A stretch of DNA of 64,000 nucleotides. Source: Synechococcus sp. AG-686-F08 (GTDB lineage: Bacteria; Cyanobacteriota; Cyanobacteriia; PCC-6307; Cyanobiaceae). The stretch spans positions 1 to 64,000 of the forward strand of contig QCVQ01000001.1 of the NCBI GenBank assembly GCA_003210315.1, given 5' to 3'. Shown in pieces: positions 15,505 to 46,652 of the stretch; the stretch's first letter is position 1, and every line of letters begins with the position of its first letter. The translations under genes and the position numbers were made by a program. The notes under the pieces were generated by a model. That model saw nothing but the letters and a program-made list of their open reading frames with translations, had not been told where the DNA came from and did no database searches.

Positions 15505-16314
15505 ATGCAGACCCCATCTCAGATGCGTTCGGTGACCCCAGGGGGGCCTGAAGGAGGACTGGTCGCGATCCTTGGTCTCGTCTTAGCCGCTTTGTTGTTG
15601 CTTTCTCAGGCTTTATTTGTGGTGCCAGCTGGTGAAGTTGCTGTTGTGACAACACTTGGCAAGGTCAGTGGCGCGTCACGCCAGCCTGGCTTGAATACCA
15701 AACTCCCCCTGGTGCAGCAGGTTTGGCCCTTCAGTATTCGCACCCAGGTTCGCCCTGAAAATTTTGCGACTCTCACAAAGGATTTACAGGTGATTGAGGC
15801 TACGGCCACGATCAAATACGCGTTGCGTGCCGATCAAGCAGGTCGTGCTTACAGCACGATTGCAAGCAGTGATCGTGATATTTACCCTCGAATCATTCAG
15901 CCTTCTTTGCTAAAAGCACTTAAATCTGTGTTTTCTCAGTATGAGTTGGTCACAATAGCCTCCGAATGGAATGATATTTCAACCCTCGTTGCAGAAACAG
16001 TCGCTGATGAGCTTGAGCAATTTGATTACGTAAAGGTGTTGGGTCTTGATCTCACTGGCTTGGAAATTGCTGAAGAGTACCGGGCAGCAATTGAACAGAA
16101 ACAGATTGCCGAGCAACAACTTCTTAGGGCTCAAACCGAGGTTAAAATCGCTGAACAAGAAGCTTTACGCTACGACACCCTGAATAAAAGTCTTGACGAT
16201 CGTGTGTTGTACAAGCTATTCCTCGACAAGTGGGATGGAATGACCCAAGTCGTTCCTGGATTGCCAGGAACTAACGGTGGTATGCCTTCAGTGATCGTTA
16301 GCTCTAAAAAATAA
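15505..16314 (+). CDS. Band 7/SPFH (prohibitin-like) membrane protein
   Basis: A 269-residue protein with one N-terminal membrane helix (about residues 18-42), an SPFH domain (GEVAVVTTLGKV, then FSIRTQVRPENF and a DLQVIEATATIKYAL strand) and a C-terminal coiled coil (EQKQIAEQQLLRAQTEVKIAEQ). Prohibitin/HflC-type proteins form ring complexes at membranes and often control FtsH proteases, which in cyanobacteria turn over photosystem II D1. No hflK-like partner lies next to it. Confidence 0.88.
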   Translation: MQTPSQMRSVTPGGPEGGLVAILGLVLAALLLLSQALFVVPAGEVAVVTTLGKVSGASRQPGLNTKLPLVQQVWPFSIRTQVRPENFATLTKDLQVIEATATIKYALRADQAGRAYSTIASSDRDIYPRIIQPSLLKALKSVFSQYELVTIASEWNDISTLVAETVADELEQFDYVKVLGLDLTGLEIAEEYRAAIEQKQIAEQQLLRAQTEVKIAEQEALRYDTLNKSLDDRVLYKLFLDKWDGMTQVVPGLPGTNGGMPSVIVSSKK

Positions 16315-16352: not shown

Positions 16353-16367
16353 CAATGATTATCATTG
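16353..16367. promoter_or_regulatory. Fur-family box (near-perfect palindrome)
   Basis: CAATGATTATCATTG differs from a perfect palindrome only at the centre and matches 12 of 13 positions of the classical Fur core AATGATAATCATT. It lies in the intergenic space after the band-7 gene and 26 bp before a long hairpin with a poly-U tail. No protein gene starts next to it, so it may control a small RNA. The match was made by eye. Confidence 0.5.
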
Positions 16368-40784: not shown

Positions 40785-41474
40785 ATGGCACGTCTGAACC
40801 GGATGCGACAAACGCGATATCTACCTCCTCTTGTTTTGTTGCTTTGGGGATGGGTGTTGGTCTGGAGCAGTGTGTCCGCACGTTTGGATTTACTCCTCAA
40901 TGCGGTGTTCCATCCGGTGGTTGCGATTGCAGGAGTTGTTCTGCTGGTGCTCGGGGCTGTTCAGCTGCGCTCTGCTCCCCGCTTGAACACGTCATTAGCG
41001 CCTCTGAGTTGGCTGGTTTCGATTGCGGTGGCCTGTTTGGTTTTGTTGTTTCCCCCATCACCTTCTTTTAGTGATTTGGCTGCGAATCGCAGTGAAAATT
41101 TGCCTGAGGCGCCGCGACTGAGCTTTTTCCTTCCGCCAGAACAACGCACGTTGACGGAATGGGTGCGGCTGTTGCGCAGTCAGCCGGATCCCAATTTGTA
41201 TGCGGGAGATCCCGTGCGGATTAGTGGTTTTGTGCTTCAACGTCCAGGGATGCAACCCCAGCTTGCGCGTCTCACAGTCCGCTGCTGCCTGGCTGATGCC
41301 ACTCCTGCTGGTCTTCCGATTGAATGGCCTGCGACTGCGGATCCTCAGCCGGATGAATGGCTGGCTATCGAGGGAACGATGACAACGCAGACCAAGGATG
41401 GACTGCTCATCAATGTGGTGAAGCCCAGCACAATCACAACCATCCCGCGACCTGAGAGGCCTCTGGAACCATGA
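40785..41474 (+). CDS. TIGR03943/YcgQ-like partner of the permease
   Basis: A 229-residue protein with three N-terminal helices (about residues 12-30, 38-60, 72-90) and a periplasmic or cytoplasmic beta domain with VRISGFVLQRPG and the diagnostic TVRCCLADATPAGLPIEW. This is the partner subunit of the UPF0718 permease. It follows the permease by 4 bp and overlaps the next ATG by 4 bp. Confidence 0.86.
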   Translation: MARLNRMRQTRYLPPLVLLLWGWVLVWSSVSARLDLLLNAVFHPVVAIAGVVLLVLGAVQLRSAPRLNTSLAPLSWLVSIAVACLVLLFPPSPSFSDLAANRSENLPEAPRLSFFLPPEQRTLTEWVRLLRSQPDPNLYAGDPVRISGFVLQRPGMQPQLARLTVRCCLADATPAGLPIEWPATADPQPDEWLAIEGTMTTQTKDGLLINVVKPSTITTIPRPERPLEP

Positions 41475-42859
41475 GCTCAAAGGGGTTTGGCCCATCGACT
41501 GGCAAGGTTCGACTCTTGAGCGTTGCTTTGATGGGTCTGGGCCTTGTCGCGTTGGTCCAGCAGCAGATTTTGTTGCGTCGCCCTCCGCGTTTGCGATCCG
41601 TCGCGATTCAATCCATTCGTTCAGGCGCTGCAGCACTTGATGTGCGCTTCAGTCGGACGATGGATCGCAATTCGGTGGCTGAAAACAGTCGTCTTTTGCC
41701 TCATCAGCCCCATCAGTGGTTTGGTCAGCAGGACCAATTCCGCTTGCTTCTCGATCCTGGAGCTCAGATTCGTTCGCCTCAGAAGCTTGTTCTTGGTGGT
41801 CGTGATCAACGCGGGCTTGCACTGCCTAAGCGTTCACTTTGGTGGGACCCTCGTTCCTATCTCGTGGCCGTGATGGTCGAGGAGGAGGGAGAGCAGTTGA
41901 AGTTGCGTCGTGAGGATGGCAGTTGGTTGCCGTTGTCGTCTGTCGAGCAGCGCATTCTTCAAATCGAGCCACTGGGCAATGGAGAGGGCGTTGCCTTCGT
42001 AACTGATAACGATCCATCCAAACTGGAGGTGTTGCTTCGCCAGCTCACTCCAAGAGCGATAAGCGATCAAGCTCAAGGATTGGCAGATCCTCTTCCAGGT
42101 GCGATTCAATCATTGGCGTCTGGATCACTTTTGTTTGCTCATTTAAGTAGCAATCAGCGCGGGGAATTACTCGTACAAGTTGGAGGTATCGAAGCGGGTA
42201 GCGACCGAACTTGGATTCGCTCGGCGAATGCCAAGCGCCGTGACCTCGACCTGGAGGTTGCAGGCGCGATCCGTCTTCTTCCTGATGGAAGCGGATTGGT
42301 TGTTCCTTCTTACGACGGGCTTGACCTTCTGCCAATGAACCCTGATCAACAAGGGAATTCTCCACAAAGTCTGCCTGGAAGCCGGGAACTTAAATCCTTT
42401 TGTTCTGGTTCCGGTCGCGCGGTTTTGTTAAGGAACTGGCCCGATTACCGACGCTCAATTGAGCTCGTCATTCCTGGGCAGCCCCCACGCCAAGTTTGGT
42501 TGGGGGAGGCTGGGGTTATGGCAACGGCTTGCGATAACCGGGGAGAAAAGATTTGGATTGTCCTTCGTGATGCATCGCCGACTCTGCGTGATGAACTATT
42601 GCTTGTGAACAGCTCTGGTTCAGTGCTTGAGCGAAGGTATTTTCCTGGATGGTATTTGGCTTCAGGAGCGGTTCTTGATGTGGATCCCGCCACGAATCGT
42701 CTGCTTACTGTGATGACAGATGGGGATGGTTTGAGACGTCGAGCTGCGCTAATCGATGGCAGCAGTTTGGAGTTTGAGCTTCTTAAACCTCAAGTTGTCT
42801 TGGCACGGTGGTTACCTGCGGCTGGTGAATTGGATGAATTCCATCAGATCCGTCGATAG
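41471..42859 (+). CDS. Membrane-anchored repeat protein, possibly beta-propeller-like
   Basis: A 462-residue protein with one N-terminal helix (VRLLSVALMGLGLVALV) and a large extracytoplasmic region of short strands such as GEGVAFVTDNDPSKLEVLL, GSGLVVPSYDGLDLL and LLTVMTDGDGLRRRAALI, which recur at about 50-60 residues, as in beta-propellers. No enzyme motif was found. It overlaps the YcgQ-like gene by 4 bp and znuC by 26 bp, so it is part of the zinc operon, perhaps as a periplasmic binding partner. Confidence 0.72.
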   Translation: MSSKGFGPSTGKVRLLSVALMGLGLVALVQQQILLRRPPRLRSVAIQSIRSGAAALDVRFSRTMDRNSVAENSRLLPHQPHQWFGQQDQFRLLLDPGAQIRSPQKLVLGGRDQRGLALPKRSLWWDPRSYLVAVMVEEEGEQLKLRREDGSWLPLSSVEQRILQIEPLGNGEGVAFVTDNDPSKLEVLLRQLTPRAISDQAQGLADPLPGAIQSLASGSLLFAHLSSNQRGELLVQVGGIEAGSDRTWIRSANAKRRDLDLEVAGAIRLLPDGSGLVVPSYDGLDLLPMNPDQQGNSPQSLPGSRELKSFCSGSGRAVLLRNWPDYRRSIELVIPGQPPRQVWLGEAGVMATACDNRGEKIWIVLRDASPTLRDELLLVNSSGSVLERRYFPGWYLASGAVLDVDPATNRLLTVMTDGDGLRRRAALIDGSSLEFELLKPQVVLARWLPAAGELDEFHQIRR

Positions 42860-43586
42860 GTTGAGCCAACTTGATGGTTCGATCTTGGAAGAGCCAGTCC
42901 TCAGAGCAGAGGGTGTCGATGTGCAATACGGCGATAGCGTTGTATTGGAAAACGTCTCGCTGTCGCTGCAATCAGGCACATTGACAGCGCTTGTTGGTGC
43001 CAATGGAGCAGGTAAATCCACTCTGCTGCATGTGCTTAAGGGGCAATTGCGTCCTTCAAGTGGCTCGGTTTACTGCGATGGGGATCCGATCGAATCTTGT
43101 CGTGAAAAGGTGGTTTTAATGCCTCAGCGCAGTCGGATTGATTGGTCGTTCCCAATCAGCGTTCGTGATCTCGTGGATCTTGGATCCATGAACGGTCAAG
43201 CCTTCGGGTGCTGCGATCGGGAGGCTGCAATGCAACGCGTAGGGATGGCAGACCTTGCAAACAGACGCCTTGATGCGCTTTCAGGTGGACAGCAGCAACG
43301 AGCCTTGCTTGCTCGTTCTCTGGTGCAACCCTCTCGAATGCTTCTTCTTGATGAACCCTGTGCAGCGATCGATCCTCCTTCTCGGGATCAATTGTTGCTC
43401 CTGATGCGTCAGTTGGCCGATACCGGTCATACCTTGCTGGTGAGCAGCCATGACTGGGGTGAGGCGCTCGATTCCTATGACCGAGTCATTGTTCTTGACC
43501 GTCGTGTTCTTGCTGATGGCCCTCCCTCTGAGGTGAGGCGCGCTCTCAAAGGTTTAGTCAATCCGGGGAATCATCACTGTGGATGA
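42834..43586 (+). CDS. znuC: Zinc ABC transporter ATP-binding protein
   Basis: From ATG 42834 a 250-residue ATPase: Walker A GANGAGKST, Q-loop LMPQRSRIDWSFPI, signature LSGGQQQR, Walker B MLLLDEPCAAID and switch His in SSHDWG. Paired with a ZnuB-type permease and ZnuA. The first 26 bp overlap the preceding gene. The track ORF starts further upstream in that gene. Confidence 0.92.
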   Translation: MNSIRSVDRLSQLDGSILEEPVLRAEGVDVQYGDSVVLENVSLSLQSGTLTALVGANGAGKSTLLHVLKGQLRPSSGSVYCDGDPIESCREKVVLMPQRSRIDWSFPISVRDLVDLGSMNGQAFGCCDREAAMQRVGMADLANRRLDALSGGQQQRALLARSLVQPSRMLLLDEPCAAIDPPSRDQLLLLMRQLADTGHTLLVSSHDWGEALDSYDRVIVLDRRVLADGPPSEVRRALKGLVNPGNHHCG

Positions 43587-44361
43587 GATCGTTTTTTGGT
43601 TTTTGCCTCTAGTGATGGCACTTTTGGTGGGGATTTTGTGTCCCGTCATGGGAACTCTGTTAGTGACCCAGCGTCGGGTGCTTCAGGCCAACCTCATCTC
43701 CCATGCCGTGCTTCCAGGATTGGCGTTATCGGTTGCCTTTGGTTTTGACCCAGCAGTGGGAGGCGTCATCAGCGGCATCCTTGGGTCCTTATTGGCTGAA
43801 CGATTGCAGCGCAACTCAAAGCTGAATGAGGAAGCTGTCATCAATACCGTGCTTGCTGGTTTTCTTGGGCTCGGAGTCTTGCTGATCCCTTTGTTGAGTT
43901 TGCGCCTGGACCTTGAGGCCCTTCTGTTTGGTGATTTGCTCACGGTGGGTTGGCTCGATGTGGGTCGGGTGTTGGTTGCTTGCTTGGCTGTGGCTTTGCT
44001 CCTTGGCACTCGCTATCGGCAGCTTGTTTATTTGGGGGTTGATCCAGAGGGGGCCGCTTCGGCGGGACTTCCAGTGCGTGGTCTACGTCTTGCCATGTCT
44101 GCGGTAACGGCTGCTGTGATTGTTAGTGCAATGGCAGCAGTGGGAGTGATTTTGGTGATTGGCTTGCTGTGCGCGCCGGTTCTTCCAGGGCTACGTCGAG
44201 TGAGAAGCCTTCGTGCCGCAATGGTTCAGGCCTCTTTTGTGGGCTTGGCTCTGAGTGGCGGTGGTTTCCTTTTGGCCTTGCCTCTCAATCTCCCCCCAGG
44301 CCCTTTGATCGGGGTGGCATGTGTTGTGTTGCTTTGCCCATTGGCAGGAAGAAGTACCTAG
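43579..44361 (+). CDS. znuB: Zinc ABC transporter permease
   Basis: A 260-residue ABC-3 permease with about eight helices. VLQANLISHAVLPGLALSVA is the coupling block and AVGVILVIGLLCAPVLPGL the late conserved one. The GTG start overlaps the znuC stop by 8 bp. znuA follows after 48 bp containing a Zur site. Confidence 0.92.
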   Translation: MDEIVFWFLPLVMALLVGILCPVMGTLLVTQRRVLQANLISHAVLPGLALSVAFGFDPAVGGVISGILGSLLAERLQRNSKLNEEAVINTVLAGFLGLGVLLIPLLSLRLDLEALLFGDLLTVGWLDVGRVLVACLAVALLLGTRYRQLVYLGVDPEGAASAGLPVRGLRLAMSAVTAAVIVSAMAAVGVILVIGLLCAPVLPGLRRVRSLRAAMVQASFVGLALSGGGFLLALPLNLPPGPLIGVACVVLLCPLAGRST

Positions 44362-44370
44362 CCAAACTTT

Positions 44371-44385
44371 TGAGAATGATTATCA
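44371..44385. promoter_or_regulatory. Zur box upstream of znuA
   Basis: TGAGAATGATTATCA fits the cyanobacterial Zur palindrome pattern TGAnAATnATTnTCA at every fixed position. It lies 25 bp before the znuA start, inside the znuB-znuA gap. Zinc-loaded Zur bound here would repress znuA and probably the genes after it. Confidence 0.82.
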
Positions 44386-44409
44386 TTTCGATTAGTTCTC
44401 CTCTCTCAA

Positions 44410-45303
44410 GTGCCCCTGCCCGCTTCTTTACCGTTTGCAAGTGTCTTGCTCGCGGCAGCTAATACGGCAACTCCCACTGTGGTTGCTGCAGATGGCATTC
44501 TTTGCGATCTCACGCGCACTTTGGTGGGAAATCAAGCAAAAGTGATTTGCTTGATCAAGCCGGGCACAGATCCGCACTCCATGGCATTGCGCCCAGCTGA
44601 TCGCCAAAATCTTGCGAAAGCAAAAATTGTGCTCTTGAACGGGTACAACCTCACTCCGGCGTTGAACAAGATCAGAACTCCTGGCACCGTCGTAAAAGTT
44701 GGAAATATTGCTGTCCCAAACAACCCTGCAAAAGATCCCCATATCTGGCATGACCCAGCCAATGTGATTGCGATGGCTAACACCGTTGCATCGAGGTTGA
44801 AGCCTCTGTTTGATGCCAATGGAGATGCTGCAATTGATCAACGACGGGCAAAAGCTGACCGCGTTCTTGTCTCCCTTGGAGGTTGGATTGGTCAACAAAT
44901 AGCAACTGTTCCGGAAAAGCAGCGTGTGGTTGTGACCGGCCACCGCACTTATGACTTCTTGGCTAAGCGTTACGGGTTTCGTGAACTTCCCGTTTTGGAT
45001 GACTACACCACGGGTGGAACATTGCGTCCTTCGAGCTTGTCTGCAATTAGCAAGTCGATCAAAGCATCTGGAAGTAAGGCCATCTTCCCCGAGTCACTTC
45101 CTCCCTCCAAAACGATGCGACGGATTAGTCGCAGTAGCGGTGTTCCGATTGCCAAGCAAGTTCTTTTTGGTGATGGGCAAGCACCAGGGAAAAGCTTGGT
45201 GCAAACAGCAACGAGCAATGTTTGCATATTTGTGAATGCTCAAGGAGGGAAATGTGATCAGAAGGGAGCTTCTCGACTTCAGCAGCAATGGGCAGCTATT
45301 TAA
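44410..45303 (+). CDS. znuA: Zinc-binding periplasmic protein
   Basis: A 297-residue cluster A-I binding protein. Metal ligands: His in GTDPHSM, His in DPHIWHDP, His in VTGHRTYD and Asp in LFGDGQ, three His and one Asp as in ZnuA. A signal-like start (SLPFASVLLAAANTA) follows GTG 44410. There is no long His-rich loop between the first two ligands, unlike proteobacterial ZnuA; the downstream barrel carries such a loop instead. Its promoter has a Zur box. Confidence 0.93.
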   Translation: MPLPASLPFASVLLAAANTATPTVVAADGILCDLTRTLVGNQAKVICLIKPGTDPHSMALRPADRQNLAKAKIVLLNGYNLTPALNKIRTPGTVVKVGNIAVPNNPAKDPHIWHDPANVIAMANTVASRLKPLFDANGDAAIDQRRAKADRVLVSLGGWIGQQIATVPEKQRVVVTGHRTYDFLAKRYGFRELPVLDDYTTGGTLRPSSLSAISKSIKASGSKAIFPESLPPSKTMRRISRSSGVPIAKQVLFGDGQAPGKSLVQTATSNVCIFVNAQGGKCDQKGASRLQQQWAAI

Positions 45304-45343: not shown

Positions 45344-46342
45344 ATGAACTCAATTTTTAGTCGTGTGCTTCAAGGTGGTGCTGTTGCTGGACTTTTGCTT
45401 GGGGGCGATCTTGCTTCTCAACCTGTTCGAGCTCATGGATCACATGGAGGTGGTGGAGAGCAATTGCAACCGGGCGAATTCAAACTAAGCCCCATAATCA
45501 CCCTTGAGGGTCATGGTGGTTTCGAGAATAATTTGGAAAACCGTCCCCAGCATTACGCCATTGACGGCATGTTCGGAATGGTTATGGAATGGGGACTAGA
45601 GAATGAAGGGAGCTTTGCGATCGAGGCTTCCTTTGGTCCGGCATTTGTTTGGGGAGAATCCGAACATTTCTATGGAGCTGTTCATGTTGATGAACACGGC
45701 GATCACGATGATCATGCAGGCCATGACGACCACGACGATCACGATGACCATGACGATCACGATGATCATGCAGGCCATGACCATTCAGGCGGAACCAAAT
45801 GGAAGCGAACAGATATAAAGGGATTTCTACAAGCTCGTTATCAGCCCAATGATCGATTGTCCATATCAGCGAAGTGGATGCCTTACTTCGAGATTGGCAG
45901 TGCAGAATCAAACGTGGGTATGAAAAACGAAGTTGGCGCTACCGTCGTCTATGCCTTCGGCGATGGTGATGTGAACTTCGCTTTGGGTGATGGTCTTGAA
46001 TCTGTGATTGACGGCGTTTTTGTTTCTGTTGAAAATCGAACTGGCTGGGATACTGAAGGCACCTACTTGGGCAATTACACGGATACTTGGCTTGGATTCG
46101 GCTTTTTTGTTGACCAGCTCAACGTGACTCTTACTGGAGGACCCCGGTTCTACTCACCTGGTTCATATTCTGGACTCTCTCAAAGGACAGATTGGGGTGG
46201 TGAGTTAGGGATGGAATATCCACTTGCAGAAAGTGTGGTGTTATTTGCTCATTGGAAGCCCATCTACAGCACCGCAGGTGGAGAAGGCTGGGGTAAGGGC
46301 TGGAGTCATCATGTGGGGACTGGTGTGAGTTTCAGTTTTTAA
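45344..46342 (+). CDS. Predicted outer-membrane beta barrel with His/Asp-rich loop
   Basis: A 332-residue exported protein with a signal peptide (ending PVRA-HGSHGG). After HGGFENNLE come alternating strands through to a C-terminal Phe (GVSFSF), typical of an outer membrane barrel. At about residues 118-150 a loop of HDDHAGHDDHDDH repeats gives more than ten His and many Asp residues, a likely zinc sponge. It follows znuA by 40 bp. I infer a zinc-binding porin or receptor. No close characterised homologue comes to mind. Confidence 0.82.
   Translation: MNSIFSRVLQGGAVAGLLLGGDLASQPVRAHGSHGGGGEQLQPGEFKLSPIITLEGHGGFENNLENRPQHYAIDGMFGMVMEWGLENEGSFAIEASFGPAFVWGESEHFYGAVHVDEHGDHDDHAGHDDHDDHDDHDDHDDHAGHDHSGGTKWKRTDIKGFLQARYQPNDRLSISAKWMPYFEIGSAESNVGMKNEVGATVVYAFGDGDVNFALGDGLESVIDGVFVSVENRTGWDTEGTYLGNYTDTWLGFGFFVDQLNVTLTGGPRFYSPGSYSGLSQRTDWGGELGMEYPLAESVVLFAHWKPIYSTAGGEGWGKGWSHHVGTGVSFSF
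45690..45788 (+). repeat. Tandem GAT/CAC-CAT repeat encoding the His/Asp loop
   Basis: Degenerate GAC/GAT-CAC/CAT codon repeats, with two longer copies of GATCACGATGATCATGCAGG (45705 and 45755) at a 51-base spacing. Repeats of this kind change length by slippage, so loop length may vary between strains. Confidence 0.75.
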
Positions 46343-46385: not shown

Positions 46386-46652
46386 ATGACGATTGACGAT
46401 CAATCAAGGCGGCATGCCATCAGCCGTCTCAGTCGTAAGAAGGCCTATCGCCATCAAGTGATCAATTACCTCTGGGTGAATGCTCTCTTGATTGTGGTGT
46501 GGGCTTTAACTGGCTTTGGTTCTTTCTGGCCGATCTACCCCATCTTCGGTTGGGGTGTCGCTCTTCTGATACAAGGATGGAAAATCACTCATCCTCATCG
46601 TCACTCATTCAGTGAAGAAGAGATCAATCGAGAAATTGAAAGTTTGAAATAA
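46386..46652 (+). CDS. 2TM domain protein
   Basis: An 88-residue protein of the 2TM (PF13239-type) group: a basic N-terminus (RRHAISRLSRKKAYRHQVI), two helices (NALLIVVWALTGFGSFWPIY and WGVALLIQGW) and a His-rich turn HPHRHSFSEEEINREIE. In other proteins this domain forms the membrane anchor of histidine kinases. It follows the barrel gene by 43 bp. The His-rich segment may bind metal. Confidence 0.82.
   Translation: MTIDDQSRRHAISRLSRKKAYRHQVINYLWVNALLIVVWALTGFGSFWPIYPIFGWGVALLIQGWKITHPHRHSFSEEEINREIESLK

Follow-up and report, generated by a model that had tools for sequence, protein, structure and literature searches.

How zinc crosses the outer membrane of marine picocyanobacteria is the question raised by a gene that directly follows znuA in Synechococcus sp. 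AG-686-F08. Zinc matters to picocyanobacteria for carbon fixation and phosphorus acquisition (PMC9337993). The plug of TonB-dependent receptors was found in 0 of 37 Cyanobiaceae genomes as compared with 13 of 23 genomes of other cyanobacteria, and Prochlorococcus was reported earlier to be devoid of such receptors (PMC2771747). Exploring the literature, we found no account of a picocyanobacterial outer-membrane zinc route that dispenses with these receptors; an earlier mention in Barnett et al. 2012, on the zinc genes of marine cyanobacteria, is possible. The gene analyzed here lies in a stretch of 64,000 nucleotides (contig QCVQ01000001.1, assembly GCA_003210315.1; hereafter the window) and encodes a specific, regulated and conserved candidate for zinc entry, reducing the question to a single gene.

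The open reading frame (45344-46342, + strand) is intact, starts with ATG and encodes 332 amino acids ending in GVSFSF, i.e. with a terminal Phe. It is preceded in the same direction by znuC (42756-43586, +; ATPase, PF00005 1e-29, true start probably further in), znuB (43579-44361, +; permease, PF00950 5e-45) and znuA (44410-45303, +; zinc ABC substrate-binding protein, PF01297 1.2e-44), from which it is separated by 41 bp of plain intergenic DNA. Residues 1-30 (45344-45433, +) were recognized by eye as a signal peptide, with a helix at residues 3-16 in the AlphaFold2 model; the predicted mature N-terminus reads HGSHGGGG and its His31 is 93% conserved in the family alignment. Residues 114-147 form a stretch of His and Asp within the loop sequence VHVDEHGDHDDHAGHDDHDDHDDHDDHDDHAGHDHSGG, encoded by a tandem repeat with periods of 27, 18 and 9 bp (45689-45781, +; TRF). 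The 27-bp unit, present three times at 45700-45781, scored 122, the top tandem array of the window, and the codons of the stretch are mixed (CAT/CAC, GAT/GAC). The sequence-only reading had described a secreted protein after znuA with a repeat-coded His/Asp stretch and a terminal Phe, and the reading frame, the TRF array and the signal peptide bear this out. Two neighbours may be mentioned. A conserved protein of 462 amino acids (window 41471-42859) that matches no Pfam or NCBIfam family adjoins the cluster; because its homologues stay near the zinc cluster under other gene orders too, often directly after the barrel gene on the opposite strand, it possibly belongs to the cluster as well. On the 3' side, a 2TM-domain protein (PF13239) whose tail contains His is encoded at window 46386-46652, 44 bp from the barrel gene; we rejected it as a conserved third gene of the operon, since it follows the barrel gene in only 8 close relatives.

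To characterize the fold, we ran AlphaFold2 twice; the mean pLDDT was 68.9 with 29 family members and 74.4 with 72. The overall confidence of the model is moderate, and the barrel strands are mostly at pLDDT 80-94. The model is a 12-stranded beta-barrel (residues 46-331; 45479-46336, +), in which DSSP assigned 12 strands, two of them split, and along which the in/out alternation of hydrophobicity is present, weakest in strand 11. Foldseek matched numerous outer-membrane barrels (E about 1e-6), with a TM of about 0.5 at best, the better matches being often 12-stranded (NalP, Hbp, VhGalP), indicating that a barrel is well supported but that membership in a specific barrel family is not. Likewise, Pfam, NCBIfam, PHROGs, PDB by sequence and Foldseek gave only sub-threshold or generic barrel matches, and the Pfam and NCBIfam scans gave no match to the cyanobacterial SLH/OprB porins (Som). 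Two identities were rejected, ZrgA (NF047873), which scored 18.1 bits against a curated 185 from the His-rich stretch only, and the ZIP family PF02535, the match to which was driven by the His stretch. The connections of the model are 4-50 residues long when odd and 2-4 residues long when even, except for that between strands 6 and 7 (16 residues). The His/Asp-rich segment (residues 111-153; 45674-45802, +) is disordered and connects strands 3 and 4. Outer-membrane barrels of this type have both termini in the periplasm, and this connection is therefore predicted to be extracellular. Structure prediction thus agrees with what had been proposed from the letters, an outer-membrane barrel with the His/Asp stretch as a loop. 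The invariant residues facing the lumen include E55, H57, H70, D74, E94, R155, D157, D247, R268, R281, D283, E287, H303 and H323. The four His among them (H57, H70, H303, H323) lie on the contiguous strands 11-12-1-2 and may form a single site; E105, E107 and H108, at the base of the loop just before the His/Asp segment, are invariant too.

Homologues were present in 31 of 60 relatives searched, all of the same taxonomic family, and a profile search detected the barrel in 96 of 300 Cyanobiaceae genomes representing 28 of 59 genera, while our sample of the phylum Cyanobacteriota contained no relatives outside Cyanobiaceae. As judged by these searches, the barrel is the founder of a putative Cyanobiaceae-only family. 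Carriers include Synechococcus WH7803 and RCC307, Cyanobium, Vulcanococcus, Prochlorococcus MIT 0701 and single-cell Prochlorococcus genomes; CC9311, CC9902 and MIT9313 we take to be among them as well. In nearly all members the barrel gene is directly behind znuA, downstream of a Zur-type box. In one genome (G302:C1:1433451-1434211, L196) it is broken by several stop codons and znuA is retained. Across dozens of species, homologues retain at this position of the barrel a segment that is acidic and in most cases rich in His, indicating that the stretch is not due to chance. Its length varies from about 19 to 133 amino acids with 0-41 His, and repeats are often visible, in line with the length variation expected from the DNA repeat. 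One lineage (G012, G013, G020, G030, G008/G029), to which CC9311 presumably belongs, carries a short loop that has Glu and lacks His altogether, indicating that the His residues of the loop are dispensable. Where the znu cluster is retained in this lineage, identity to the window proteins is 84-94% for ZnuA but only 57-59% for the barrel, indicating that the barrel diverged or was exchanged faster than its neighbours.

To examine how the gene is controlled, we searched for Zur sites. A Zur-type palindrome, AATGATTATCATT, was found by pattern search at 44375-44387 (+), 35 bp before the GTG start of znuA, and the extended Zur pattern has a single exact match in the 1.58 Mb searched of the AG-686-F08 genome. 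Allowing up to 2 mismatches, a Zur-like box precedes znuA in 89 of 103 loci (some genomes being counted twice) versus 6.6% of random windows. The barrel gene is apart from znuA in G008, G029, RCC307 and Prochlorococcus AG-363-O15, and there a Zur-like box is positioned 35-44 bp before its own start. The transcription unit of the barrel carries a Zur-type box, which fits a place in the Zur regulon. In RCC307 the barrel gene directly follows a zur-like gene of the Fur family and is followed 2.5 kb further on by a His-rich COG0523 GTPase. Further genomes have a Fur-family gene beside the barrel, of which one representative matched the Zur structure of WH8102, 7NE9, at 2e-50. The neighbourhood in RCC307 (L108 8164-10454) looks like a zinc island, encoding a His-rich DUF305 protein, a MerR-family regulator and the His-rich COG0523 GTPase, and adjoins the Fur-family gene and the barrel. 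Two more Zur/Fur-like palindromes were seen at window 16354 and 50371, exact and with one mismatch to the core, the one at 16354 just after a prohibitin-like reading frame (15505-16314). In Synechococcus WH8102, synw0971 (znuA) and synw0972 are up in a zur mutant and at low zinc (PMC9337993), and SYNW0972 is termed uncharacterised and likely co-transcribed with znuA (PMC9337993). In the CC9902 genus, each of the 19 genomes of high quality has the barrel (one as a broken copy), behind znuA in those inspected, and in many of them znuC and znuA are divergent, as described for WH8102; SYNW0972 is therefore very probably the ortholog of the window barrel by gene position. A zinc response, which the sequence-only reading had named among its tests, is documented, as is control by Zur, for the positional ortholog (PMC9337993).

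These results bear on whether the protein is a channel or a surface zinc sponge, i.e. a closed barrel serving as an anchor for a loop that stores or buffers zinc, with entry of zinc through general porins. Most candidate ligands are located in the loop and not in the barrel, the length of the loop varies freely, and the conserved charged residues of the lumen together with the long connection between strands 6 and 7 may block the pore. However, the most conserved residues are those of the barrel, the His, Glu and Asp of the lumen being invariant whereas the loop can lose all of its His, and a storage protein would be expected at high zinc, yet SYNW0972 is up at low zinc. We consider the sponge unlikely.

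The pairing with ZnuA further characterizes the barrel. ZnuA of the type found beside it (profile E<=1e-100) is encoded in 91 of 300 Cyanobiaceae genomes, 89 of which also carry the barrel (Fisher 5e-65 over the 300 genomes, kinship ignored). In 7 genomes the barrel occurred without this ZnuA, in most of them because the assembly is incomplete or a gene is cut; RCC307, too, has the barrel but no close ortholog of this ZnuA. Inspection of the window ZnuA agreed with the earlier remark that it is devoid of the His-rich loop seen in other bacteria; the same is true of the barrel-linked clade except for the MIT0701/MIT9313 type. In contrast, of 20 sampled ZnuAs that do not belong to the clade (16 encoded in genomes lacking the barrel, 4 second copies in barrel genomes), 19 have a His-rich loop, the 32 residues preceding the DPHxW motif containing 5-12 His. 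In the tree, the ZnuAs linked to the barrel group together as a single clade (support 0.976) within the ZnuAs that have the His loop, and the simplest reading is that the loop may have been lost once, together with the pairing. This correlation is suggestive only, because it represents essentially one evolutionary event, with a reversal in MIT9313-type strains. The idea that the barrel may provide the His loop of ZnuA hence gains comparative support, the loop-less ZnuAs being a single clade and the one paired with the barrel. It does not hold in the literal sense, the barrel loop being predicted outside the cell and the ZnuA loop being periplasmic, nor without exception, MIT9313-type Prochlorococcus having both loops and CC9311-type strains neither. 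At the two loci with both, L119 (Prochlorococcus MIT 0701) and L127 (MIT9313-type), the ZnuA His loop is accompanied by a long His/Asp barrel loop, contrary to the general trade-off.

Less probable than the sponge is that the barrel is a Zur-regulated porin, either general or for another metal such as Co, Cd or Ni, whose acidic/His loop has no role beyond an electrostatic adjustment of cation selectivity. The Glu loops that replace His loops in one lineage fit such a porin, and MspD of Mycobacterium smegmatis is a precedent for a porin under Zur, but the tight pairing with one ZnuA clade, the mostly His-rich loops and the four invariant His of the lumen favour a zinc-like metal. That the protein is a surface antigen on which phages or grazers exert pressure, its loop a hypervariable decoy and its zinc regulation incidental, is very improbable: the loop is replaced among close relatives, as the barrel identities of the Glu-loop strains illustrate, and some family members match the cyanophage barrel model PF24653, yet the composition of the loop remains His/Asp/Glu with no free drift, and the Zur box and znuA linkage persist, the barrel having its own box where it is apart from znuA.

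We favour, at a probability of roughly 0.7, that the barrel is a Zur-repressed, TonB-independent outer-membrane channel for zinc capture that is partnered with a ZnuA devoid of the His loop. Under zinc shortage, Zur would dissociate from its box (44375-44387), allowing joint production of ZnuA and the barrel; the flexible His/Asp loop at the surface would capture Zn(II) and concentrate it at the mouth of the 12-stranded barrel; Zn(II) would then pass the invariant residues of the mouth and lumen (H57, H70, H303, H323, E55, D74, E105, E107, H108) and reach the periplasm, to be picked up there by ZnuA for ZnuBC. The outside position of the loop, zinc binding, passage through the lumen and delivery to ZnuA are steps that we infer; by analogy with ZnuD and PhtD-AdcAII, capture outside and hand-over to ZnuA without TonB is the most likely working. 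Given that TonB-dependent receptors appear to be absent and that ZnuA is paired with a zinc-controlled barrel bearing a His/Asp lure, the barrel is the best candidate for passage of zinc through the outer membrane of marine picocyanobacteria. It also suggests a division of labour in which the loop that lures zinc is carried either by ZnuA or by the barrel. We give even odds to the broader proposal, that these barrels constitute a novel, TonB-independent family of zinc channels that replaces TonB-dependent receptors in picocyanobacteria, the His lure having in effect been moved from periplasmic ZnuA to the surface loop of the barrel.

Comparing the barrel with known systems, we found a partial likeness to PF24653, a cyanophage OMP-like barrel model matched by 27 of 29 family members at E<=0.1 (best 6.8e-9) and by the window barrel at 26.3 bits, the gathering cut-off of this Phage_OMP model being 27. 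PF24653 differs in being about 120 amino acids long, covering only strands 7-11 of the barrel and having no His loop. A cyanophage origin was rejected, there being no direct match to a phage record or viral contig. In RCC307 a second small barrel (L108 6917-7687; PF24653, 2.3e-13, above the cut-off) is encoded directly downstream of the His-loop barrel. MspD, a Zur-regulated porin of M. smegmatis implicated in zinc homeostasis, differs in being a mycobacterial MspA-type porin, in the published summary of which no His loop is mentioned. In pneumococcus, the surface His protein PhtD is encoded in an operon with the loop-less substrate-binding protein AdcAII and hands zinc to it; the likeness is that of a surface His-rich zinc protein encoded beside a substrate-binding protein without a His-rich loop, and the difference is that PhtD is Gram-positive, with soluble His-triad domains and no barrel, so that homology is not claimed. 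The His/Asp extracellular loop of ZnuD, the neisserial TonB-dependent zinc receptor, captures zinc, and the Bordetella znuD gene adjoins znuABC/zur. Both ZnuD and the window barrel are outer-membrane proteins with a flexible His/Asp-rich loop, its extracellular side in the barrel following from the predicted topology. However, ZnuD has 22 strands and a plug and requires TonB, whereas the window barrel has 12 predicted strands and, in a Pfam scan, no N-terminal plug domain (PF07715). By plug and by strand number it is therefore not ZnuD, although by analogy it would resemble ZnuD in its working. The closest counterpart is SYNW0972 of WH8102, which, matched to the barrel by position and not by sequence, likewise directly follows znuA, is repressed by Zur and responds to zinc.
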